From Fibrobacter sp. (GTDB lineage: Bacteria > Fibrobacterota > Chitinivibrionia > Chitinivibrionales > Chitinispirillaceae), in assembly GCA_012523595.1 (NCBI GenBank), contig JAAYIG010000058.1, positions 1 through 61,136 of the forward strand: 61,136 nucleotides of DNA, in the 5' to 3' direction. Shown here in pieces: positions 11,455 through 38,254 of this stretch. The stretch's first letter is position 1; each line of letters begins with the position of its first letter. The notes beneath the pieces were generated by a model, which did no database searches, was not told the DNA's origin, and saw only the letters and a list, made by a program, of their open reading frames with translations. The position numbers were made by a program, and so were the translations under genes.

Positions 11455-13995
11455 TCATTTCCTCCTATCCTTATCCCATCCGTATTTTTCCCAAAGAGAG
11501 GAGAGATACTTCTTCATATCGATCCCATCTCCCAGAACAGGTTTCCACAGGTCACCATATTTTGCCAGCCTGTGCATGACCTCCTCCCTTGTAAACTGCT
11601 GAGGATTCAGTCCGGCCTTTACCTCTTCCCAGTTTAACGGTGTTGAGACAGGTGCACCTGGTCTGGGGCGTAAAGAATACACCGAAGCCATCGTTTTGCC
11701 TTTTATATTCTGGAGAAAATCCAGATAGACTTTCCTCCTGCGCCTTTCCGGAGGTCGCTCCATGCTGGTAATCGAGGGTTCCATACCATTTACAATGGTA
11801 CAGATAAGAGCCGAAAACTCACGAGCCTGACTGTAACTGTACAAAGCCCCCAGAGGAACAAATATATGCATCCCTGTTGAACCTGAGGTCTTTACATAAT
11901 GGGGCATTTCTACACTTTGAAGAACTCTATGGACAACAAGTGCTGTTTCGATGACATCTTCGAAAGGACAATCAAGCGGATCAAGATCAATGACCATGTA
12001 ATCAGGTCTGTCAAGTCTGCCGACCCTGGAAATCCAGGGATTTATCTCGATTGCGCCCAGATTGACCATGTACACCAGGGACGCCTCATCCTGGCAAAGA
12101 AGATACCGTACCCGCCCCTCAGGAATATCTGATTCCACGTATTCTGTTTTAATCCACTCAGGAACATCGCTCATATCCTTATGAAAAAAACTCTTTCCAT
12201 TTATTCCATCCGGGAACCTGTGCAGGGACTCAGGCCGGTCAATGAGGTGGGGGAGAATAAAAGGAGCCACTTGCCTGTAGTAATCGATAGTGTCGCCTTT
12301 TGTGATTCCCTCTCCAGGCCAGTAATACTTGTTTAAATTTGTTAACTTGAGGGTTTTTCCGCTTACCTCCAGAAACTTATCACTGCTTTCGGGAACAGCA
12401 TATCTTCCAATACCAGCTTTGCTTACTGGTATCTCTCTGCGAATCTGTCTTGCATCGACATCTTCCCTGAATCCCAGAAAAACCGGCTGACGCATCAGTC
12501 CTTCCGGTGTCCATTCAGAGAATTTTACTTCACACACAAAAACAGGATCCACCCAGGTAATATTGGTGTCGCTTTTCAGTGACTTTCTGAAAGGGGAGTC
12601 TTCTCTGATGAATCTGATTAGCTTCTCTCTTACCAGTGGCAGTTCATCATCTGTAAATCCACTACCCACACTTCCGGCATACACAAGTTCATCATCTTCA
12701 TAGACTCCGCCCAGAAGCGCTCCTATTCCTGTCCGGCCGCCTCTGGGCTCGGTAAAACCTCCAATAACAATCTCCTGACTGAGAGTGGCTTTTATCTTCT
12801 GCCAATGCCAGGTGCGTGTTCCACCCATGTAACTGCTGCTTCCCTCCTTTGCCATTATTCCTTCCAGCCGGTTCTGCTTTGCAAGCTCGAAAAATGCCTT
12901 TCCGTTTTCATGAATATGATCGCTGTAACGGATACGGGGAAGAGCAGGAATAATAGTTTTCAGGATGCTCTTTCTTCTAAGTAAAGGCAGGCTGCGCAAA
13001 TCGTAGCCTTCCAGGTATAAAAGATCGAAAATGTAGTAGGCGAGATCTCCGCTTCCTGTGCGGCGGTAATCCTGCAGGAGGTGAAAGTCAGAACGGCCTT
13101 CACTGTCTAACACCACAATCTCACCATCAAAAATCACCTGAAAAGATATCTTCTCAAGATCTCTTGCCAGTGGAGGATAGTCATTTAGAAAACTCTTTCC
13201 CTTGCGGGAATAGAGCTTTACTTTTCCATTCATCACCTCGGCTATCGCCCGGTAACCATCCCATTTTATCTCAAAGACCCATCCCTGACGGTCAAATGGT
13301 TCCCCAACCAGTTGAGAGAGCATGGGCTGGATTGGACCAGGGGGAGGGGGGGCCTTCTGTGATCCGGAAAGATCTATCTTCGATAAATCAATTGTAAAAT
13401 TCTCATCCAGATAATCCTGACTGCGTATCTGTTCAAGTGTACGTCCACTCCGTGCGGAAAGTCCCTCATCCGGAATCTCTCTTTCAGTTGCAAACTGGTC
13501 ATCTTTTTTTATCAGCAGCCAACTATTCTCCTGTGTACCTCTCTTCAGTCTGACCAGGTGAAAGGCCCCTTTGAGTTTCTTACCATCAAGAGTGAAATAA
13601 ACATTGCCCCGGTCAAGCCCTTTTCTGATCTCTTCCTCTGTTCTTTTCTGTCCATCTGTCCCCGGAACTGAATATGTGCCCTCATCCCAGATCATCACTG
13701 TCCCGGCCCCGTAGTTTCCTTCCGGAATAGTGCCTTCGAAATCGCGATACTCCAGCGGATGATCTTCTACCATCACGGCAAGTCTTTTTCTGGATGGATC
13801 GAGTGAGGGACCCTTTGGAATAGCCCAGCTCTTTAATACTCCATCGAGCTCGAGTCTGAGATCATAGTGAAGATGGGAGGCTTTGTGTTTATGTACAACA
13901 AAACATAATGCACTGCTCTCTTTTTCCTCTCTCTCACCTGCAGGTTCAGGTGTGAGAGAAAAATCACGCTTCTTCCGGTATTTATCGAGTGACAT
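11455..13995 (-). CDS. ligD: Multifunctional NHEJ DNA ligase LigD (phosphoesterase-ligase-polymerase)
   Basis: A complete 846-residue LigD in the Pseudomonas-type order. Residues about 25-180 are the 3'-phosphoesterase (FVVHKHKASHLHYDLRLE, EDHPLEYRDFEGTIPEGNYG). Residues about 220-520 are the ATP-dependent ligase, with the adenylated lysine in FEIKWDGYRA near 243 and downstream OB fold. Residues about 550-830 are the primase-polymerase (LNKYYWPGEGITKGD, VIDLDPLD, TSGSTGMHIFVPL, YLDFLQN). Mycobacterial LigD has a different order (Pol-PE-Lig). It follows ku by 11 bases on the same strand, so the two enzymes of bacterial non-homologous end joining are co-transcribed. Confidence 0.97.
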   Translation of the reverse strand: MSLDKYRKKRDFSLTPEPAGEREEKESSALCFVVHKHKASHLHYDLRLELDGVLKSWAIPKGPSLDPSRKRLAVMVEDHPLEYRDFEGTIPEGNYGAGTVMIWDEGTYSVPGTDGQKRTEEEIRKGLDRGNVYFTLDGKKLKGAFHLVRLKRGTQENSWLLIKKDDQFATEREIPDEGLSARSGRTLEQIRSQDYLDENFTIDLSKIDLSGSQKAPPPPGPIQPMLSQLVGEPFDRQGWVFEIKWDGYRAIAEVMNGKVKLYSRKGKSFLNDYPPLARDLEKISFQVIFDGEIVVLDSEGRSDFHLLQDYRRTGSGDLAYYIFDLLYLEGYDLRSLPLLRRKSILKTIIPALPRIRYSDHIHENGKAFFELAKQNRLEGIMAKEGSSSYMGGTRTWHWQKIKATLSQEIVIGGFTEPRGGRTGIGALLGGVYEDDELVYAGSVGSGFTDDELPLVREKLIRFIREDSPFRKSLKSDTNITWVDPVFVCEVKFSEWTPEGLMRQPVFLGFREDVDARQIRREIPVSKAGIGRYAVPESSDKFLEVSGKTLKLTNLNKYYWPGEGITKGDTIDYYRQVAPFILPHLIDRPESLHRFPDGINGKSFFHKDMSDVPEWIKTEYVESDIPEGRVRYLLCQDEASLVYMVNLGAIEINPWISRVGRLDRPDYMVIDLDPLDCPFEDVIETALVVHRVLQSVEMPHYVKTSGSTGMHIFVPLGALYSYSQAREFSALICTIVNGMEPSITSMERPPERRRRKVYLDFLQNIKGKTMASVYSLRPRPGAPVSTPLNWEEVKAGLNPQQFTREEVMHRLAKYGDLWKPVLGDGIDMKKYLSSLWEKYGWDKDRRK

Positions 13996-28910: not shown

Positions 28911-31673
28911 ATGATAAAATCCCGGGGAGGGGTAATCTGTTTTCTGCTGGTTTTAAGCACCCTGTTACTGTGTTCAAATTCTGATTCAGGCCGTATTCCC
29001 TCAGTTTCAGTTGTTATCGGTAATGCTTTGTTGATCAGGAATGGTTCTAATATTCCTTTGGTCAACCGCTTGAAATTGATGAAAGGTGATACTGTTTCCC
29101 TCTCGATGAACTCAAAAGCAAAACTTTCATCCGGAAATGGAGCAGGCTTTTACCTCAATAAAGGCACAAAGCTGAGCATTGGTCCACTCAACAAGAAAAA
29201 TCAGACACTTGTTTACCTGGTTCAGGGTGATGTTCATTTTATATCGGGTGATTCACGTAATGAAACAACCCCGTATATATTCATAACCAGGGCTGGAAGG
29301 GTTATGGCTTCTGATGCTCAGGTTTACATTAAATACAAAAGCAAAACAAATACACTGTCTGTCTTTACACTGTCCGGTTCGGTTTCTTTCTACAGTGTAA
29401 AGGGTGAGGAGATAATGCTGCCACCCTGTACCCGGTATCTGGTGGAGGGGGCTGCCCCAGGACAGATGCTTCCTCCATCAGAACTGGATATTGCAGAACT
29501 GAGGAACTGGGTAGGGAGTTCTTTGATCGATGGTGCACTTGTAAATACAGGATGCATAGTCAAGACTCCGGGAGGAGACAACCTGCCGCCGGAGTGGAAG
29601 AGAATACCAGGGGATATCTGCATGGCAGGGGAACTGCTTGTGGATACAATTGAAGCTTATGATCCTGAAGGTAGACATGTTTACTATCAATTGTTAAAGG
29701 GCCCGGAGGGTATGGTCATAGATGCATTCAGCGGTGAGATCCATTATCGCCCGCTTTCGTCCGGTGAAATGGATGTGCGTATCAGAGCCATGGATACAGA
29801 TTCACAATTCTCCGATTATGAGTACACCCTGATAGTCTCATCTGGACTTGCTGCAACCTTAAATGTACCCAGAATTGTAAAACCCAGGCAGCCATTCAGG
29901 ATTTCAGCCGCTCCCCTGCGTACAGGTGCAATCAGGTTTGAAGGACTTTCATACAGGTTTGATCTTGATGGTGACGGGAAATTTGAATACCCTCACCCCG
30001 GAAAGTTCGGCTCAACTTCAGTGGTCAAAGATATCTCTATCAATAAAGAGGGAGAAAGAAAGATAACAGTTGAGATAATGGATGCCCGGGGGCATACTGC
30101 CAGAGCAACCCGCACTGTGATGGTTAATGCTCCTCCCAGAGCAAAGCTTTCCATTACCCCTTCAAAGGGAAACACTGAGTCTGTCTTTGAACTTGATGCC
30201 GCAAGTTCAAGTGATACTCAGGATTCTTCTCGCTATCTGATGGTAAGATTTGATACAAACGGGGATGGTAACTGGGATCTCCCATCAGGAGGAAATTTCC
30301 TCCGGGAAAAGCGTGTTTATTATACCTGGAAAAATCCCGGGAAATACCGCGTTATTCTTCAGGTATTAGACACCCATGGTTTGTTTGACACCGATACCGC
30401 AGAAGTGTTGATTGGCAGAGACCTTGTTGTGGATATTGAGTCCAGGGACTCAGCTCACATTGGGGATTCTGTAGTGTTTTATTGCAAAACAGGTCCTAAT
30501 GAGTATCCGATAGTAAAATACGAGTGGAGTTTTGACAATGATACTGTATTTGAAACGAAATCACTCAGCGAAAAGCATGTACAAATCTTTCAAAAAGCCG
30601 GCTTGTATACTATCCGGTGCAGTGTAGAGGATTCGATAGGGCAAACCGGGCAGTACTGGAAAAAACTGGTCATTGTGAATACATCCTGCAGTGTGGATGC
30701 CGGAGGGCCCTACAAGGCGCAGATAAATTCGCCGGTAAGATTAGAAGGATCTGCCAGCGATCCTGACAGCAGAATACTGGCTTATTACTGGGATTTCAAC
30801 AATGATAATATCCCGGATACAACTTTAAAGCAGAACAGCAGTGTCACCCATGTGTTCAGAAGGTCCGGAAAACATACTGTTGTTTTAACAGTTGAGACTG
30901 AGGATGGGCAAAAGGTGAGTGATTCTGCAGAGGTGATCGTCACAAATATGCCTCCTGTTGCCAGAGCTGGTGAGGATGTGATTTCTAAAAAGGGTAGAAA
31001 GATCAGGCTTGAGGGCAAAGGAGAGGATCCGGACGGAGAGATTATTAGTTATCAATGGGATTTTGATGCTGACGGGGTATTTGACTGGTCCTCAGAGGAA
31101 AACGGAATAGTGGAGCACTCCTTCACTGAATACAGCTTTGCAATCTTTAAAGTTACCGATTCTGACAGTGCTGTTGCTTTTGATACTCTTCGGGTGATAA
31201 TCTGTCCTGAAGGAATGCAACTGATTGAGGGTGGCAGATTTTGTGTCGATATCTATGAATGGCCAAACAAAAAGTATGAAATGCCTGTGGTAGATGTTTC
31301 CTATGAGGAAGCGGTTGAGACCTGTGCCAAAGAGGGAAAAAGGATCTGCACAGCAGAGGAATGGCAAATGGCTTGCAGAAATCAGAATGAGAGATCGAAT
31401 TACCCCTATGGGAAAGAGTATCAGGTGGATCGCTGCAATACAATCGGTAATCCGACTGTGAAGAACAAGCTGAGCGCATCAGGAGTTTTCTTACACTGCG
31501 CAGGAGCATCGGGAATATTTGACATGAGCGGCAATGCCGCTGAATGGACCAGAGGAGCTTATGTATATGGTGGTTCCTGGCAAAGCGGTGAAGATGGCAG
31601 CAGATGTGATTCACATGTTCAGCTTCAAAAAGGCAGGAAGTATTTTTATGCAGGGATCAGATGTTGCAAATAA
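28911..31673 (+). CDS. FecR-PKD-SUMF1 multidomain surface lipoprotein
   Basis: A 920-residue exported protein with a lipoprotein-type signal (VLSTLLLCSNSDSG, LLLC lipobox). Residues about 30-180 form a FecR-like domain (LMKGDTVSLSMNSKAKLSSG, LVQGDVHFISGDS). A cadherin-like/putative Ig segment follows (VYYQLLKGPEGMVIDAFSGE). Several PKD-type repeats then follow, with D-x-DGDGKFEYP, FDTNGDGNWDLPSG, YEWSFDNDTVFE, YYWDFNNDNIPD and YQWDFDADGVFDWS. The last 150 residues are a SUMF1 domain (EGMQLIEGGRFCVDIYEWP, ICTAEEWQMACR, DMSGNAAEWTRG, AGIRCC). PKD repeats usually extend surface proteins or bind polysaccharide. The stop overlaps lnt, whose product acylates lipoproteins, by 13 bases. Confidence 0.88.
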   Translation: MIKSRGGVICFLLVLSTLLLCSNSDSGRIPSVSVVIGNALLIRNGSNIPLVNRLKLMKGDTVSLSMNSKAKLSSGNGAGFYLNKGTKLSIGPLNKKNQTLVYLVQGDVHFISGDSRNETTPYIFITRAGRVMASDAQVYIKYKSKTNTLSVFTLSGSVSFYSVKGEEIMLPPCTRYLVEGAAPGQMLPPSELDIAELRNWVGSSLIDGALVNTGCIVKTPGGDNLPPEWKRIPGDICMAGELLVDTIEAYDPEGRHVYYQLLKGPEGMVIDAFSGEIHYRPLSSGEMDVRIRAMDTDSQFSDYEYTLIVSSGLAATLNVPRIVKPRQPFRISAAPLRTGAIRFEGLSYRFDLDGDGKFEYPHPGKFGSTSVVKDISINKEGERKITVEIMDARGHTARATRTVMVNAPPRAKLSITPSKGNTESVFELDAASSSDTQDSSRYLMVRFDTNGDGNWDLPSGGNFLREKRVYYTWKNPGKYRVILQVLDTHGLFDTDTAEVLIGRDLVVDIESRDSAHIGDSVVFYCKTGPNEYPIVKYEWSFDNDTVFETKSLSEKHVQIFQKAGLYTIRCSVEDSIGQTGQYWKKLVIVNTSCSVDAGGPYKAQINSPVRLEGSASDPDSRILAYYWDFNNDNIPDTTLKQNSSVTHVFRRSGKHTVVLTVETEDGQKVSDSAEVIVTNMPPVARAGEDVISKKGRKIRLEGKGEDPDGEIISYQWDFDADGVFDWSSEENGIVEHSFTEYSFAIFKVTDSDSAVAFDTLRVIICPEGMQLIEGGRFCVDIYEWPNKKYEMPVVDVSYEEAVETCAKEGKRICTAEEWQMACRNQNERSNYPYGKEYQVDRCNTIGNPTVKNKLSASGVFLHCAGASGIFDMSGNAAEWTRGAYVYGGSWQSGEDGSRCDSHVQLQKGRKYFYAGIRCCK

Positions 31674-33286
31674 TTTTACAGAAGATATTGGGATATTATA
31701 AAGAGGGAAACCGATGGTGGATTCCATTGCTTTCCGGATTACTGTTTTCTCTGTGTTTACCCCCATTTAACCATGAACAGAACATCCTTCTTGCCCCATT
31801 TCCGTTCCTTGGTTTTGCCATTCTGATACCGCTTTTTGCTTTTTCTGTGCAGACGCCTTTTAAACGTGCTATAGTACATACTTACCTGTTTTCAATCACA
31901 GCAGCACTCAGCCAGTTTTACTGGATCGGTTTTGTTACAGCAGAAGGACTCTGGCACATGGTCCTTATCGGTCTGGTGCTCGCTTCAGCAGTAATTGGTT
32001 TATTCTACCTTGCCGCTGGGCTTCTTTTTCGATATGTTTACAAACAGTTACCACGGATGTATATATTAGTTTTTCCCGCACTCTGGGTTCTGATCGATTA
32101 TTCCCGCTCACTTGGCGATATCTCTTTTCCCTGGGCATTTCTGGGATATTCATTGATGCCGATTATTCCACTGGCTCAGGTTGCATCCTTCTCGGGTGTA
32201 TGGGGTCTGACTTTTCTCATCGTGCTGGGAAATATGCTTGTCTGGGAGCTTGTTGTAAGCTACATAATAAACCGGAACCAGTCTCAGAAATGGCTCCACC
32301 TTTGCATTTTTACAGTTTTTATTATTATAGTCGGTTTTGCCGGCTGGATGAAAACCAGGGAAAAAATCACCGGTGAGAGCTTCAATGTTTCTCTTCTGCA
32401 AACCAATATCGACCAGTTCAACTGGGGAAACAGATCTCTGGACACTGCATTTACCATCACCGAATCGATGGTTTATCGTGCTTCCGAAACGAAACCGGAT
32501 CTGATTATCGCTCCTGAAAGTGCCCTGCTCTGCTATCTTTCAAGGCGTCCCAATCTCAAATCAAGAGTAATTAGCTGGGCAGATTCTTTAGGTACCCCTA
32601 TTATCCTTGGTGCACTTCACTGGGATAAATCGCCTGAGGGATCTATCTATGACTATTTTGTTTACAACTCGGCCTTTCTGGTTGATCCTGTTAAAAAGGA
32701 TCTGTTGCCATATCATAAAAGCAAGCTTGTTCCTTTCAGTGAAGCGATCCCTTTTGAAGGGAAATTCCCCATATTATCAAGAGTTAATCTGGGGGAAGCT
32801 GATTTCAAAAGAGGACTGGAATCCACAATTTACAACCTGAGTGGGAATCTGAAAGCTGCACCGTTTATCTGTTATGAAATTATCTTCCCTGGTTTTGTCC
32901 AGAAACGGGTGAAACAGGGAGCCGATATGATAGTAACTATCACCAATGATGGATGGTTTGGAAAATCAAGCGGCCCCTTTCATCATGCAACGATGGCCAG
33001 AATGAGAGCTGTTGAAAATGGTGTACCCCTGGTAAGGTGTGCCAATTCCGGGATAAGCATGCTGGTAGATCAGTATGGGCGTGTGCTTCAGAAAACAGGA
33101 CTTTATAAAAGAACGATCCTTTCCGGCAGTGTCGTTCCTGTAAAAAAAGAGACATTTTATTCCAGGTGGGGTGACTGGTTTATTTTTCTCTGCCTGCTTG
33201 TTACTTTCAGCAGTGCAATTTACATTGTAATCTCCCGTGTCAGGCCTGGAAAAAAGCAGCCCGGGCCACAGGCAGATACACCATAA
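31661..33286 (+). CDS. lnt: Apolipoprotein N-acyltransferase
   Basis: Adds the third acyl chain to the N-terminal Cys of lipoproteins at the periplasmic face of the inner membrane. The N-terminal half has about six membrane helices. The C-terminal nitrilase-like domain has the Glu-Lys-Cys triad in IIAPESALLCYL, YHKSKLVPFSEAIPFEG and FICYEIIFPGF, plus ITNDGWFGKSSGPFHH. A terminal helix (FIFLCLLVTFSSAIYIVI) completes the family plan. At 541 residues it is normal size. Its presence implies a diderm envelope with triacylated lipoproteins. It begins inside the 3' end of a predicted lipoprotein gene. Confidence 0.96.
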   Translation: MLQIILQKILGYYKEGNRWWIPLLSGLLFSLCLPPFNHEQNILLAPFPFLGFAILIPLFAFSVQTPFKRAIVHTYLFSITAALSQFYWIGFVTAEGLWHMVLIGLVLASAVIGLFYLAAGLLFRYVYKQLPRMYILVFPALWVLIDYSRSLGDISFPWAFLGYSLMPIIPLAQVASFSGVWGLTFLIVLGNMLVWELVVSYIINRNQSQKWLHLCIFTVFIIIVGFAGWMKTREKITGESFNVSLLQTNIDQFNWGNRSLDTAFTITESMVYRASETKPDLIIAPESALLCYLSRRPNLKSRVISWADSLGTPIILGALHWDKSPEGSIYDYFVYNSAFLVDPVKKDLLPYHKSKLVPFSEAIPFEGKFPILSRVNLGEADFKRGLESTIYNLSGNLKAAPFICYEIIFPGFVQKRVKQGADMIVTITNDGWFGKSSGPFHHATMARMRAVENGVPLVRCANSGISMLVDQYGRVLQKTGLYKRTILSGSVVPVKKETFYSRWGDWFIFLCLLVTFSSAIYIVISRVRPGKKQPGPQADTP

Positions 33287-33317: not shown

Positions 33318-34154
33318 TCAGGAATACGGTTTCAGACCGAAGATGGAATGAACAGGCGAGGGGATAAGACCTTTTTCTCTGATTGTCAGAAACAGTTTTT
33401 CCAGTTGAACCAGGAACTCATCTCTGATTTCCGGATCAGGAATTGTATCGTGGAGTAATACTACTGATCCTGGTCTGGCAAGCTCAGGAATGAGTCGGAA
33501 GGTTTTCCTGAACCGGTTGCCGCCATCCCTTACACTTCCACTCCATCCTATGCATTCCATGTCAAGTTTTTCAAGCGCTGCTTTCAGGTGCGGATTTGTA
33601 AGACCTACAGGCGGGCGGTAAAGACGCACTGTTTTTCCGGTGATGCGGCGAAGAATTTCCCGTGCCTCTCCGATCTCTCTGACCATCGCTGCGGTAAGGC
33701 GAAAATTGGATGTGTAGCGGTGGTCAAGATCATGACAGGCTATGGTGTGCCCTTCATCGATTATTCTGTGAATAATTTCAGGGTGCTTCTCTGCTTTTCT
33801 GGCAATGACAAAGAAAGTGGCCGTATATCCAAATCTGCCCAGCAGTTCCAGAATCTGTGGAGTGATCTGAGGGGCAGGCCCGTCATCAAATGTAAGCGCA
33901 ATTGCAGTTTTTTCACCCTTTTTATGGCAGAATGTGGGACAGAAAAAAGAGTTCCTGATATCGATAATGCCCCATACCAGAACGGGTATGTGCAGAAGTA
34001 AAAAGGTAAGAAAAAGATATCTGTATTGCGGAATAACAATGGTAAGAAAAAGAAAAACAAGAAAAGAAACTAACCAGCGGAATGCTTTATTTTTTAATAA
34101 GTTCGACAAAAGCGGCTCCATCGGAAACCGGAGAGTATGAGCACACAGCAACAT
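33318..34154 (-). CDS. Membrane-anchored polysaccharide deacetylase (NodB/CE4)
   Basis: Two N-terminal hydrophobic segments (WLVSFLVFLFLTIVI, FLTFLLLHIPVLVWGII) anchor a NodB domain. The metal and catalytic residues appear in ALTFDDGPAPQITPQ (Asp-Asp) and ACHDLDHRY, where the usual HS-x2-H pair is replaced by H-x3-H. Later blocks are RLYRPPVGLTN and VVLLHDT. CE4 enzymes remove acetyl groups from amino sugars or acylated substrates. It overlaps the upstream ketoacyl-synthase-like gene by 68 bases (35 if the ATG at 34121 is used; neither start has a clear Shine-Dalgarno). It ends the KS/ACP operon, so its substrate may be the operon's lipid product. Confidence 0.85.
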   Translation of the reverse strand: MLLCAHTLRFPMEPLLSNLLKNKAFRWLVSFLVFLFLTIVIPQYRYLFLTFLLLHIPVLVWGIIDIRNSFFCPTFCHKKGEKTAIALTFDDGPAPQITPQILELLGRFGYTATFFVIARKAEKHPEIIHRIIDEGHTIACHDLDHRYTSNFRLTAAMVREIGEAREILRRITGKTVRLYRPPVGLTNPHLKAALEKLDMECIGWSGSVRDGGNRFRKTFRLIPELARPGSVVLLHDTIPDPEIRDEFLVQLEKLFLTIREKGLIPSPVHSIFGLKPYS

Positions 34155-34887
34155 GTTTCTGATCAGAAGAATTCAGCCATTCGAAAACAGAAATAGCCGG
34201 CTTGACGTAAGAAGAATCGCTTTCACTCATCAGTTCACAACTGTCTCCGGCATTGTCTTTAACCAGTTTTCTGCAGGCTTCTTCGGGATCTTTTCCTGCG
34301 GCAGGGACCGGGCCAAAGGCACGGATCAGGTTTCCCTCCTGATGAAGAGATTTCCCAAGAAGAAATCCGACAGAAGCTTCCTCCCAGTCTGCGCTTAGAT
34401 ATCGTCTGCATTTTTCAGACATGAAAGGATGAATTCTGTCAAGGAGTTCGATTCTTTCATCGATTGCCAGCACCAGAGCCGGGAAATATTTGTCACTCAA
34501 CAGTCCCGCAGCAATGATTGCAGAGGCCAGAGAATTCTGCCCTTCACACATTGTAAGGTTGGGACCTGTGATCCTGAATTCCAAGGCCAGCTTCCCGGCT
34601 ATGCTGTTATGTACTGAGGCGATGAAATTACGGGGTGAACTGAAACCCTCTCCATATACTCCATCCAGCACGTTTTTTGTCTCATCAAGGGCACCAAGAC
34701 CGGTTCCGATTACAATGGAATTCGGCTTCAAATCTGTTTTGCCAAGGGTGCGTGAGGCGGCAAGATAGGCCATCTGCCAGATTCTTGGATCACGGCGTTT
34801 CAGCGATGCCGGTACTTCTTTCTCCCATTCCGGTTCTCTGCGGGGAATTATGGCTGATGATGATAATACAGATAAGAATTGCTGCAT
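34087..34887 (-). CDS. Chain-length-factor-like ketoacyl synthase (N-terminal-domain only), copy 2
   Basis: A 266-residue protein with the N-terminal half of the ketoacyl-synthase fold (SIVIGTGLGALDETKNVL, FIASVHNSIAGKLALEF, GPNLTMCEGQNSLASAIIAA). The nucleophile turn that reads T-A-C-S/A-S in active enzymes is replaced by CEGQNS, and the His/His half is missing, so condensation is unlikely. Standalone half-size synthases of this type (Ketoacyl-synt_2) sit beside active KS proteins in aryl polyene loci and act as partner or chain-length factors. It starts within the stop of the active KS gene (TAATG), implying a heterodimer. Confidence 0.7.
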   Translation of the reverse strand: MQQFLSVLSSSAIIPRREPEWEKEVPASLKRRDPRIWQMAYLAASRTLGKTDLKPNSIVIGTGLGALDETKNVLDGVYGEGFSSPRNFIASVHNSIAGKLALEFRITGPNLTMCEGQNSLASAIIAAGLLSDKYFPALVLAIDERIELLDRIHPFMSEKCRRYLSADWEEASVGFLLGKSLHQEGNLIRAFGPVPAAGKDPEEACRKLVKDNAGDSCELMSESDSSYVKPAISVFEWLNSSDQKHVAVCSYSPVSDGAAFVELIKK

Positions 34888-36050
34888 TATTCTGCCTTTG
34901 TAAATACAGCGGCTGCATTGTTGCCGCCAAAGCCGAAGGAGTTTTTCAAAACATGCTTCAGGGGACGGTTCATCACCTGTGAAGGAGATACTCCTATCTC
35001 CTCGTCCTCTATTTCGAATCCGGCTGTAGGGGGTATTATTCCCTCTTGAAGTGCCTTTACAGCTAATACTGACTCCAGAATTCCTGATGCGGCAAGTGTG
35101 TGCCCCAGAGTTCTTTTCATCGAACAGAAAGGGGGCAGGGTATTGAAGATGGATTTCATCGCTTTGATTTCTGCCTTGTCATTGTCAGGGGTTCCGGTTC
35201 CGTGTGCCGCTATCAGATCGATCTGCTCTGGTGCAATACCCGCTTCGTCAATAGCATCTTTGACAGCCAATTGTGCCCCGAGACCTTCGGGGTGGGGGGC
35301 GGTCATGTGAAAACAATCCGCTGATGCACCCCATCCGCTGACCATAGCCAATGGTTTGCTGACGCATCTGGAGATAAACTTTTCTGTAGTCAGAAGCATC
35401 GCACCTGCACCTTCTCCAAGACTGATTCCTGCTCTTCGTTTATCAAAGGGACGGCATCCATTGGGGTCAAGAAGCATAAGGCTCGCAAAACCCCGGACAG
35501 TAAGTATCGAAAGAGCATCGGTTCCTACTGCCAGACAGGCATCGTATGTCCCCTGTTCCAGAAATCTTTTAGCCATTCCTATTATGTGAAGTCCGGTGGA
35601 GCAGGCGGTCGATACTGTGTGAAAGCCGCTTCCACCTGTGCGGCGGCAGATCTCTCCTGCCAGTACTGTGGGCTCATGCACAGCGAATTCTGTCGCTGAA
35701 CGGTCGATAATGGATGGATCTTTTCTCAGTGCCTCATAAAATCTTTCTGTCTGAGATATTCCGGCAACAGTTGTTGCAACCAATATTCCGATCCGGAGGT
35801 TTTCTCTGTCAGGCATAGAATGCATGGCTTCATCGACAGCAGCCATCGCCAGAGCCAGAGATCTGTAAAGGTCTGAATATTTCTCCGGAATCTCTGCTAT
35901 CTCTGCACAGAATGGAGGAACCTTGAGACGGGAATCGAAGATGGAAAGCGGTCTTATGCCATCACGACCCTGAACAATAGCGGAAAAACTATCCTGGACA
36001 CTGTTTCCCGGAGAACTGACAGCACCCATCCCGGCTACAAATACCGACAT
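34887..36050 (-). CDS. Beta-ketoacyl-ACP synthase (FabF-like), KS2
   Basis: A complete 387-residue condensing enzyme. The Cys-His-His triad is present: VSTACSTGLHIIG, IAAHGTGTPDNDKAE and KRTLGHTLAASG. GEGAGAMLL and the terminal NSFGFGGNNAA fit type II synthases. It extends acyl chains on ACP by two carbons. The gene lies 8 bases after the ACP gene and runs into its half-size partner, and it is clearly different from the second KS of the locus. No ketoreductase, dehydratase or acyltransferase gene lies in the cluster, so those steps must come from elsewhere or the product stays partly unreduced. Confidence 0.93.
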   Translation of the reverse strand: MSVFVAGMGAVSSPGNSVQDSFSAIVQGRDGIRPLSIFDSRLKVPPFCAEIAEIPEKYSDLYRSLALAMAAVDEAMHSMPDRENLRIGILVATTVAGISQTERFYEALRKDPSIIDRSATEFAVHEPTVLAGEICRRTGGSGFHTVSTACSTGLHIIGMAKRFLEQGTYDACLAVGTDALSILTVRGFASLMLLDPNGCRPFDKRRAGISLGEGAGAMLLTTEKFISRCVSKPLAMVSGWGASADCFHMTAPHPEGLGAQLAVKDAIDEAGIAPEQIDLIAAHGTGTPDNDKAEIKAMKSIFNTLPPFCSMKRTLGHTLAASGILESVLAVKALQEGIIPPTAGFEIEDEEIGVSPSQVMNRPLKHVLKNSFGFGGNNAAAVFTKAE

Positions 36051-36058
36051 ACTCTAAC

Positions 36059-36319
36059 TTATTCTTTCTGGCGGTTTTCCTGAACGTACTCTGCCAAAGC
36101 CCTCAGAGATGAGAATACTTTCCTGCCTGCATTTACATCCGGTACTGTTACACCGTAATCTTTCTCCAGCATAACAAGCAGCTCGAGTGTATCGATAGAA
36201 TCGAGGCCAAGACCCGCTCCAATAAGGGGTGCATCTACATCGATATCTTCAGGTTTGACATCACTCAATTTTAAGGCGCTGATTATCTTGCCGCCCAGTT
36301 CATTCATCAGCTTTTCCAT
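36059..36319 (-). CDS. Acyl carrier protein
   Basis: An 86-residue ACP. The phosphopantetheine Ser is in GAGLGLDSIDTLELLVML, giving the DSI form instead of DSL. The fold continues with EKDYGVTVPDVNAGRKVFSS and the final helix. It sits between the two KS/CLF-like pairs, which suggests that one carrier serves both. Start by ATG; GGTGGAGCTTTC precedes it. Confidence 0.92.
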   Translation of the reverse strand: MEKLMNELGGKIISALKLSDVKPEDIDVDAPLIGAGLGLDSIDTLELLVMLEKDYGVTVPDVNAGRKVFSSLRALAEYVQENRQKE

Positions 36320-36404
36320 GAAAGCTCCACCTTGATTAATTGATTAAATGATTACCTTGTTTTAAAGTATGCCTTGATTTAAATATGGAAGATTTATTTC
36401 CATA

Positions 36405-37175
36405 TTAATAACCATCGTATCGTAAAGAAATATAACCTCTGAAACCACTTCCCGGAACAGAAATAATCTCCTCCCTCTTTTTCATCAGTGAATTTATTAC
36501 ACTCATGAAAAACTCCTGTTCATTGCACTCCTGATCCTTAGATGTCAATAGCAGGTCAGGCCGGAATTCCATTTCAGCCAGATAACCGCTCTCCGGGGTG
36601 TTGGAAAGAAGAATGGCGATGGCACAATCGGTTTTCTTTTCTGGTGTTTTCGTAAAATCACCCGAAGATTCCCAGACTGCAACCCAGAGCACTCTTTCAG
36701 CTTTCCCCGACTTCAGCCAGTATGCAGCAGTGTCAATAGCGGAAAATCCTGGCAGATCTCCTCCGCAGAAAATCCTGTCAGGCCCCTTCAGTTTAAAGAA
36801 TATGGCAATATCTGCAATAGTTGAGGAGGGGAGAGTAGCTGAGAAAAAAGCCGGACTGGGAAATCCGTTTAAAACTGAATCCATGTAAAGAAGGTCAGTC
36901 GAAAGCGATCCTTGTGGTATGCACATGCAAATCCCGGTTTTTTCTCCGACGGTCTGGTTTGTCCGGGATAGTGCCGAAGCGGCTGCGCTGAATGCAAGCC
37001 TGTCCGGGATGTTGAGCTTACCAAATGATGGATAGGGTGAGGGGAGAACCTGATTCCGTCTTACATCAAGAGGACCCTTCTGATCACTTTCCCATGGTGT
37101 TATCCCATCTGGTGTGTAAATCCCATCCGTATGGAGCGCTGAAAACCCGCTGATATATACCTTTACGGAGCTCAT
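36405..37175 (-). CDS. Chain-length-factor-like ketoacyl synthase homologue, copy 1
   Basis: A 256-residue protein with a weak but consistent N-terminal ketoacyl-synthase pattern (DRLAFSAAASALSRTN, FFSATLPSSTIADIAIFF, LKGPDRIFCGGDLPGFSA, VLWVAVWES). The active-site Cys turn reads FCGGDLPG and is not a functional CAS/CSS motif. It is more diverged than copy 2 but has the same length and the same position directly after an active KS gene, overlapping it by 4 bases (ATGA). I read it as the partner subunit of KS1. An 85-base gap separates it from the ACP gene. Confidence 0.6.
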   Translation of the reverse strand: MSSVKVYISGFSALHTDGIYTPDGITPWESDQKGPLDVRRNQVLPSPYPSFGKLNIPDRLAFSAAASALSRTNQTVGEKTGICMCIPQGSLSTDLLYMDSVLNGFPSPAFFSATLPSSTIADIAIFFKLKGPDRIFCGGDLPGFSAIDTAAYWLKSGKAERVLWVAVWESSGDFTKTPEKKTDCAIAILLSNTPESGYLAEMEFRPDLLLTSKDQECNEQEFFMSVINSLMKKREEIISVPGSGFRGYISLRYDGY

Positions 37176-38254
37176 AATCCGTGCTCCTTCAATACGACAG
37201 CAGCATTTAGTCCTCCAAAACCTGCTGAAAGGCAGAGAACAGAATTACCGCAAAACTCCTGAATCTCTGAGCTCACAGGGATCTTCTCTTCAACCCCAGG
37301 CTCCTCAAACCCTGTTGTTGGAGGGACTTTTCTCTTCTTCAGAAACTCAGCGGCAAGCATTATCTCCAGAAGTGAACCAGCGCCGCTTGTGTGTCCGATT
37401 GCTCCCTTGATTGAATAAATGGGCGGGATTCTGTCAAACAGGGCTGTAATTGCTTTTGCCTCCATTGCGTCATTGTAAACAGTAGCTGTTCCATGACATT
37501 TTACCGCGCCTGTAATCGGTTTAAATGCGGAAGCATCCTCCAGGGCTGCCTGAGCAGCTCTCAGAAGGCCATCACCGGTCCTGGAGGGACCTGTTCGATG
37601 ATTCGCATCATTGGAACAGCCTGCCCCGGCTACAATGATATCTCCCTGTGACGGAGTCTTATATGTCAAAACGGAAAGAGCGGCACCATCTCCAAGATTC
37701 AACCCATCGCGGGATTTGTCGAAGGGTTTTGCTCCTTTACTGCTAAGAGCATTTAAGGAATGAAATCCGCTTACCACAAACCTGGAGATCACATCGTACC
37801 CGAAAATCACCACATTTTCAAACATCTCTCTTTCGAGCACCTCTTTGGCCGTTTGTACCGCGATTGCCCCGGATGCGCATGCACTGGATACCACCATTAT
37901 TCTTGAAGGTCTTATACCCAGAAGTTTGGCAACTTTTCTGGCCTGATGATCTAAAAGTGCCTGGGGAATATCTGTGCCTTTTTCAATCGGACCTATATCT
38001 CCTTTTGCAGCAGCATAAATAAAGAGAACACCGGGGCCCTCCGGAAGTTTTCCGCAAAGTGATTTGAGCGCATGCACAGATCCGCTCAGTGTTGCCCAGG
38101 AGCGGTCTGGAAAAGGTGCGCATACAGTATCGATATCAAAAAAAGGTCCCTTACAGATTGCAGATTTCCCGCTGAGGATCGATTCGCTGGCGGGTTTGAG
38201 AGTCCCTGAAGCACACAGAATCTCATTCTTCTGTAAAACTACTGCTTTGTCCAA
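37172..38254 (-). CDS. Beta-ketoacyl synthase family condensing enzyme, KS1
   Basis: A 360-residue condensing enzyme, about 50 residues shorter at the N-terminus than FabF. The catalytic residues are kept: MVVSSACASGAIAVQTA (Cys), VKCHGTATVYNDAMEAKA (His) and SIKGAIGHTSGAGSLLE (Lys, His). The terminal LSAGFGGLNAAVVL is the usual GFGG-x-NA block. The short N-terminus is a family variation, not a frameshift, because the first 100 residues still alternate beta and alpha patterns. It is the first gene of the six-gene minus-strand locus; the gap upstream is 416 bases, shared with the divergent glnN gene. Confidence 0.85.
   Translation of the reverse strand: MDKAVVLQKNEILCASGTLKPASESILSGKSAICKGPFFDIDTVCAPFPDRSWATLSGSVHALKSLCGKLPEGPGVLFIYAAAKGDIGPIEKGTDIPQALLDHQARKVAKLLGIRPSRIMVVSSACASGAIAVQTAKEVLEREMFENVVIFGYDVISRFVVSGFHSLNALSSKGAKPFDKSRDGLNLGDGAALSVLTYKTPSQGDIIVAGAGCSNDANHRTGPSRTGDGLLRAAQAALEDASAFKPITGAVKCHGTATVYNDAMEAKAITALFDRIPPIYSIKGAIGHTSGAGSLLEIMLAAEFLKKRKVPPTTGFEEPGVEEKIPVSSEIQEFCGNSVLCLSAGFGGLNAAVVLKEHGL

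Follow-up and report, generated by a model that had tools for sequence, protein, structure and literature searches.

A conserved cassette with two ApeO–ApeC-type ketosynthase pairs in Chitinivibrionales and its possible place in a dispersed aryl-polyene-like pathway

We analysed a 61,136-nucleotide stretch of DNA from Fibrobacter sp. (the window; contig C58 in the 4.1 Mb draft genome G000), focusing on six genes that encode a ketosynthase (KS1), a half-size ketosynthase homologue resembling a chain length factor (CLF1), an acyl carrier protein (ACP), a second ketosynthase (KS2), a second half-size homologue (CLF2) and a NodB-type deacetylase. Judged from sequence, this cassette is a doubled ApeO–ApeC module rather than a complete pathway, because KS1 and KS2 group with the ApeO ketosynthase of aryl polyene (APE) clusters, the ACP is nearest to ApeE, and CLF1 is predicted to fold like ApeC. 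With moderate confidence, we read it as the condensation core of a dispersed pathway to an aryl-primed polyene lipid, similar in kind to the aryl polyenes and flexirubins. The aryl polyene family of bacterial metabolites is very widespread and has been studied mainly through compact clusters in Proteobacteria and Bacteroidota; a doubled KS–CLF core with scattered partners in strictly anaerobic lineages would be difficult for cluster-based mining to identify as a single pathway.

Composition and placement of the cassette

In a maximum-likelihood tree, KS1 and KS2 each formed a single clade and were sisters of one another (support 94/89); together they joined E. coli ApeO and the ketosynthases of APE-like clusters from genomes G008 and G010 (support 96/93), apart from FabF, ApeR and the ketosynthase of a second type II locus of the window genome (C221). 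The original prediction that both proteins keep Cys-His-His held, with a lysine in addition: Cys126, His254, Lys283 and His288 of KS1 were invariant in an alignment with 15 relatives, and KS2 retains the catalytic Cys, His, Lys and His, likewise invariant among relatives. Tree position and invariant residues together identify both as the ketosynthase of an ApeO–ApeC-type KS–CLF; the top NCBIfam score of each was PRK09185, under its cut-off. The cassette contains no FabB-like second ketosynthase of the ApeR type, KS2 also being ApeO-type.

CLF1 (256 aa) and CLF2 (266 aa) both lack the nucleophilic cysteine, as had been proposed (the Cys turn reads FCGGDLPG in CLF1 and CEGQNS in CLF2), and agree with the half-size CLFs, which are about 240 aa long, have no active-site cysteine and are encoded with a ketosynthase. 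The two are related to each other (hhalign E 3e-10), and comparison of CLF2 with ApeC gave E 4e-5. CLF1 had zero Pfam matches and a single, weak NCBIfam match, the cispentacin CLF-like AmcG; the first PDB match of its structure model (predicted local distance difference test, pLDDT, 83) was ApeC of Xenorhabdus (6qsp_B, E 2e-11). Putative KS–CLF heterodimers would fit the gene pairing and the fact that G029, of genus g17, naturally encodes KS2 and CLF2 as a single fused frame (L081:7946-9586, 546 aa); an AlphaFold model of this fusion was discarded for its poor quality (pLDDT 65). The simplest history that these sequences suggest is that KS1–CLF1 and KS2–CLF2 arose by duplication of one ApeO–ApeC pair. 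The ACP scored 81.6 bits against NCBIfam PRK09184 (cut-off 70) and was nearer to ApeE (43%, E 4e-20) than to ApeF (36%). In APE systems, ApeO–ApeC is teamed with homodimeric ApeR, and ApeE is the presumed starter carrier (PMC8358021). The proposed likeness to aryl-polyene type II loci is thus borne out by the ketosynthase tree, the ACP and CLF comparisons and the fold match.

The deacetylase keeps TFDDG, HDxxH, RPPVG and LLHD, in accordance with the CE4 motifs (TFDDG, HxxxH, RPxxG, LxHD); its metal and catalytic residues were invariant in 12 relatives, and Pfam PF01522 matched with 104 bits. Its top NCBIfam score, 119 bits, was to the NodB model TIGR04243 and fails the cut-off of 240. Two N-terminal membrane helices are predicted to precede the catalytic domain, with both ends of the hairpin on one side of the membrane. 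A membrane deacetylase as last gene had been called unusual, a view weakened by several precedents: the flexirubin cluster has a polysaccharide deacetylase, flxP, with a proposed export role (PMC3992019), the arcuflavin loci include the polysaccharide deacetylase arcN (PMC3949708), and the Kuenenia ladderane-candidate locus has the deacetylase-like Kuste3351 (PMC2649909). We found no demonstrated function for flxP, arcN or Kuste3351 in these three papers.

All six reading frames were found where they had been predicted, on the minus strand and in the order described (Table 1). Pfam placed ketosynthase domains in KS1 and KS2, PP-binding in the ACP, PF13723 in CLF2 and PF01522 in NodB. Taken in transcription order, the genes are separated by a 4-bp overlap, an 85-bp gap, an 8-bp gap, a 1-bp overlap and a 68-bp overlap, the last of which shrinks if NodB starts at its second Met. 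The TTG start of KS1 is backed by alignment with relatives, and sigma-70 promoter matches in the region were at chance level.

Table 1 Genes of the cassette and the adjoining lnt gene, with positions in the window.
Feature	Position	Strand	Characteristics
KS1 ketosynthase	37172..38254	-	ApeO clade; catalytic Cys-His-Lys-His kept; diagnostic NDANHRTGPSRTG and KCHGTAT motifs
CLF1, half-size chain-length-factor-like ketosynthase homologue	36405..37175	-	No active-site Cys; top PDB match of model ApeC (6qsp_B)
ACP, ApeE-type, DSI phosphopantetheine site	36059..36319	-	43% identity to E. coli ApeE; PRK09184 above cut-off
KS2 ketosynthase, ApeO clade	34887..36050	-	31% identity to E. coli ApeO over 99%; catalytic residues kept
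CLF2, half-size chain length factor	34087..34887	-	PF13723; ApeC-like SVHNS motif; no active-site Cys
NodB-type CE4 deacetylase	33318..34154	-	Two predicted N-terminal membrane helices; metal/catalytic motifs intact
lnt, apolipoprotein N-acyltransferase	31661..33286	+	Convergent neighbour of the deacetylase

Conservation across the order

Our comparison set comprised 40 genomes of the window's order, 17 of them carriers of the cassette (as judged by KS1, found at 379-597 bits in 7 GTDB families) and 23 non-carriers. Conservation of the KS-CLF-ACP-KS-CLF-NodB order had been put forward as a check on the original prediction, and the full order KS1-CLF1-ACP-KS2-CLF2-NodB was indeed complete in 11 loci, counting the window, that span 6 GTDB families within a single order (the others being L068, L069, L070, L072-L076, L078 and L079). 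These loci come from Fibrobacterota metagenome-assembled genomes (MAGs) of Chitinispirillaceae/Chitinivibrionales, and their flanks mostly differ. The cassette order is not a product of chance, because it is kept in other families with other flanks, and pairwise distances among the cassette proteins correlate (r 0.83-0.96) as expected for joint descent. The exceptions are G005, which has the cassette without NodB, three loci cut by contig ends, and genus g17, where parts of the cassette lie on separate contigs. At the deacetylase position, G005 encodes a protein of 1279 aa in which many Big_2 repeats accompany a CotH kinase domain (L071:4099-7938).

Two peptide patterns for KS1, run against 84,980 species genomes, returned 14 clear loci and two further weak matches, a count that could miss more distant relatives given that the scan demands exact short motifs. 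The record titles of the clear loci were mostly Chitinispirillaceae, Chitinivibrionales or Fibrobacter(es). Decay from a full APE cluster was rejected as the origin of the cassette, since its reading frames and residues are maintained across 6 families; full APE-like clusters, moreover, sit in genomes free of the cassette (G008, G010).

Ammonia-lyase and other candidate partners

The original prediction held that ketoreductase (KR), dehydratase (DH), acyltransferase, thioesterase and export genes are absent; this is accurate for the cassette and not for the genome, where candidate DH, acyltransferase and KR genes are encoded elsewhere. The window genome also encodes an ammonia-lyase of about 530 aa (G000:C95:21278-22876), which was present in 13 of the 17 carriers and in none of the 23 non-carriers (Fisher p 2e-7, and 7e-5 at genus level, in tests that ignore phylogeny). 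Genus g15 includes a genome with both lyase and cassette and a 96% complete one with neither. The lyase of G005 (L071) lies 3.4 kb upstream of KS1, with a B12 radical S-adenosylmethionine (SAM) gene and two unknown genes in between. From sequence comparison its substrate is likely aromatic, because it scores below the hutH cut-off (499 bits versus 539), the flexirubin tyrosine ammonia-lyase FlxA is nearly as close (480 bits versus a cut-off of 700), its motif is NQD, and G024 has the lyase plus a separate hut operon with hutU and hutI. Histidine ammonia-lyase carries an NQED motif. Plain histidine degradation is therefore less likely, given this difference, the lack of adjoining hutU/hutI and the presence of both systems in G024.

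In G000 and G001 the lyase faces an operon encoding DUF362, a lipoate-ligase-like protein and two B12-radical-SAM proteins. The first of the latter passes TIGR04072, a ladderane-named family described as 'lipid biosynthesis B12-binding/radical SAM' (406 bits, and 412 in G005; cut-off 360), orthologs of which occur in 9 of the 17 carriers and 1 of the 23 non-carriers. G002 and G017 have the DUF362/radical-SAM operon without the lyase. DUF362 proteins stand beside the lyase in G024 as well as in G000 and G001, and in G002, whose genus is without the lyase, a prephenate dehydratase-ACT protein fused to DUF362 is encoded upstream of the cassette (L069:13995-16061).

A trio encoding a PlsC-type acyltransferase, a FabZ/ApeI-like dehydratase and a flavin mononucleotide (FMN)-reductase/SCP2 protein is located at G000:C203; it adjoins a radical-SAM gene in G026 and lies 1.9 kb from the lyase in G039. 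An ApeJ-like acyltransferase at G000:C222 (28% identity over 93%, E 2e-31) has homologues that adjoin the lyase in G032 and G036 and lie close to it in G025 and G031. For the KR, the candidates are FabG from the fatty acid synthase (FAS) operon and the enzyme encoded in C221 (42% to ApeQ). It had been suggested that the cassette borrows housekeeping FAS enzymes; this may apply to the KR, but the candidate DH, acyltransferases and lyase are encoded elsewhere and are physically linked to the lyase, a B12 radical-SAM gene or the cassette in other carriers.

The C221 locus (L011:103-6095) encodes KR-FabZ-KS-CLF-ACP-CrtI-like oxidoreductase, its CLF being full-length, and is similar in gene content to the Kuenenia/Desulfotalea candidate clusters for ladderanes or polyunsaturated fatty acids. 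Loci of this type were found in 26 of the 40 genomes, namely all carriers except one 69%-complete genome, plus 10 of the 23 non-carriers, and C221 was therefore rejected as an obligatory partner for want of specificity. An APE exporter and an ApeI-like dehydratase were also considered as partners in the window genome and were not found.

Proposed pathway, known systems and alternatives

In the pathway that we propose, the ammonia-lyase would convert an aromatic amino acid to a cinnamate-type acid, which would be loaded on the ApeE-type ACP. The putative heterodimers KS1–CLF1 and KS2–CLF2 would extend this starter by malonyl units, perhaps one in early and one in late rounds, and a KR (FabG or that of C221) and the FabZ/ApeI-like dehydratase of C203 may act in each round, so that conjugated double bonds would result from the absence of enoyl reduction. 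The PlsC-type and ApeJ-like acyltransferases could then transfer the chain to a lipid or glycolipid; an N-acetyl group might be removed by the membrane deacetylase from the acceptor or the product.

Several observations weigh against this interpretation. Many genomes of the comparison set are incomplete MAGs, the Fisher tests are blind to phylogeny, and the lyase is missing in four carriers (three of one genus, plus G028) and is also close to aminomutases. The match between CLF1 and ApeC is not significant by profile alone (probability 13%), and just three genomes were seen to have the dehydratase/acyltransferase trio, no search of its distribution having been made. The window genome yielded no ortholog of the MMPL exporter of the APE type, ApeI-like dehydratases were below the Pfam cut-off in the 20 genomes searched, and neither an aryl ligase, a thioesterase nor an ApeR was identified.

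Comparison with characterised APE clusters (E. coli CFT073, L201; Xenorhabdus/Acinetobacter ApeO-ApeC) clarifies what is shared: an ApeO-type ketosynthase, a half-size ApeC-type CLF and an ApeE-type ACP, with distant counterparts of ApeD, ApeI/ApeP and ApeJ encoded elsewhere in the window genome. APE clusters have one KS–CLF pair plus the FabB-like ApeR and two ACPs, whereas the cassette has two pairs and a single ACP; their KR, DH, ligase, thioesterase, LolA and MMPL exporter are clustered, whereas the cassette holds none of these and adds a deacetylase, with the ammonia-lyase elsewhere in the genome. An APE biosynthetic gene cluster unites two ACPs, ApeQ, ApeI/ApeP, ligase, thioesterase, LolA and MMPL, and this combination was not found in the cassette. 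The cassette is thus not an APE cluster by membership, because defining genes are missing from it, the exporter was not found and the second ketosynthase is of the wrong type, yet it probably works like one at its core. The original prediction had named as evidence against it a match to a known complete cluster with its missing genes elsewhere and a known product; candidate genes were found elsewhere, but no known product was matched. The Chitinispirillum paper mentions neither pigment nor yellow colour.

Flexirubin clusters (Chitinophaga/Flavobacterium flxA-flxY, PMC3992019) combine several ketosynthases, the aromatic ammonia-lyase FlxA and a polysaccharide deacetylase, for which the ketosynthases, the candidate lyase and the deacetylase of our system are possible counterparts. 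They differ in forming a single large cluster that also contains KR, DH, ligase and export genes, where our system has six clustered genes and scattered partners; dialkylresorcinol genes were not found near the cassette. The arcuflavin system (Azoarcus BH72, PMC3949708) is likewise split between loci and pairs a ketosynthase with an N-terminal-KS-domain protein (arcK/arcJ), but its deacetylase arcN is encoded at a second locus, which also carries an exporter, LolA, an acyltransferase and a ligase, and its starter is made by a chorismatase rather than a lyase.

The strongest alternative is that the cassette makes a special non-aromatic lipid with a polyunsaturated or ladderane-like acyl chain, the lyase being co-inherited for another role; we consider this unlikely, though by no means implausible. 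The B12 radical-SAM gene next to KS1 in G005 passes TIGR04072, and the ladderane candidates of Kuenenia and Desulfotalea (PMC2649909; TIGR04072) share with the carriers anaerobe hosts, a B12 radical SAM, a deacetylase-like gene in the Kuenenia locus and several divergent ketosynthases, some without active-site residues; a parts list like theirs recurs in the C221-type loci of nearly all carriers. However, the cassette ketosynthases and ACP group with APE proteins, whereas the Kuenenia/Desulfotalea clusters themselves hold FAS enzymes together with CrtI-like and methyltransferase genes. TIGR04072 is above cut-off in the window genome and G005, but the CrtI-like enzyme belongs to a separate locus, a type also present in those 10 non-carriers, and the radical SAM accompanies the cassette less often than the lyase does.

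It is improbable, in our estimation, that the system makes a Nod-factor-like lipo-oligosaccharide, an envelope glycan lipid in which an acyl chain built by the ketosynthases and ACP (as with NodE/NodF) would be attached to the nitrogen of a deacetylated amino sugar. Rhizobia do encode the CE4 deacetylase NodB with a ketosynthase and ACP, and the cassette enzyme is a conserved last gene with intact motifs, NodB as its top NCBIfam score and both hairpin ends predicted on one side. Nevertheless, that score is under half of the NodB cut-off, NodA and NodC are not seen in the cassette, no glycosyltransferase or N-acyltransferase is found in it or common to its flanks, G005 lacks the deacetylase, and the flexirubin and arcuflavin loci have deacetylases and make no Nod factor (PMC3992019, PMC3949708). 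Least probable is that the lyase is a phenylalanine/tyrosine aminomutase and the product a beta-amino-acid-primed amide or lipid: the top PDB relatives of the lyase are tyrosine aminomutase and AdmH, its aminomutase model scores (452 and 448 bits) are near its FlxA score, and AmcG is the one NCBIfam match of CLF1, but every aminomutase cut-off was missed and no amide synthase or nonribosomal peptide synthetase was seen near cassette or lyase.

Returning to the aryl-primed polyene pathway, one may speculate further, although we regard this extension as doubtful, that the cassette represents a new anaerobic aryl-lipid class, in which a polyene primed by an aromatic amino acid would be built by a relay of two specialised KS–CLF heterodimers and then methylated or cyclised by a cobalamin radical-SAM enzyme of the ladderane-named family, with deacetylation of the acceptor taking place at the membrane. 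The cassette offers a test case for the role of a second KS–CLF pair, and ties aryl-polyene-type synthases to a ladderane-named cobalamin radical-SAM family and to the flexirubin and arcuflavin deacetylases.

Among the neighbouring genes, lnt adjoins the deacetylase in the window genus (window, L068) and in family f3 (L073, L074), and is probably a mere neighbour outside the pathway. Elsewhere in the window, positions 11455-13995 encode a DNA ligase D with phosphoesterase, ligase and primase-polymerase domains; the named members of the order are anaerobes. A separate polyketide-type locus of the same genome (G000:C234:7629-11887, L012) encodes large modular ketosynthase proteins of 1253 and 768 aa with four KS-domain matches. 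In G010 (C332; L133:3-3350), a single frame combines a B12-binding/radical-SAM part, a complete ketosynthase and a CLF-like ketosynthase part, and sits in a full APE/flexirubin-like cluster with KR, ketosynthase, MMPL exporter, LolA2-like, ammonia-lyase and GT2-acyltransferase genes.

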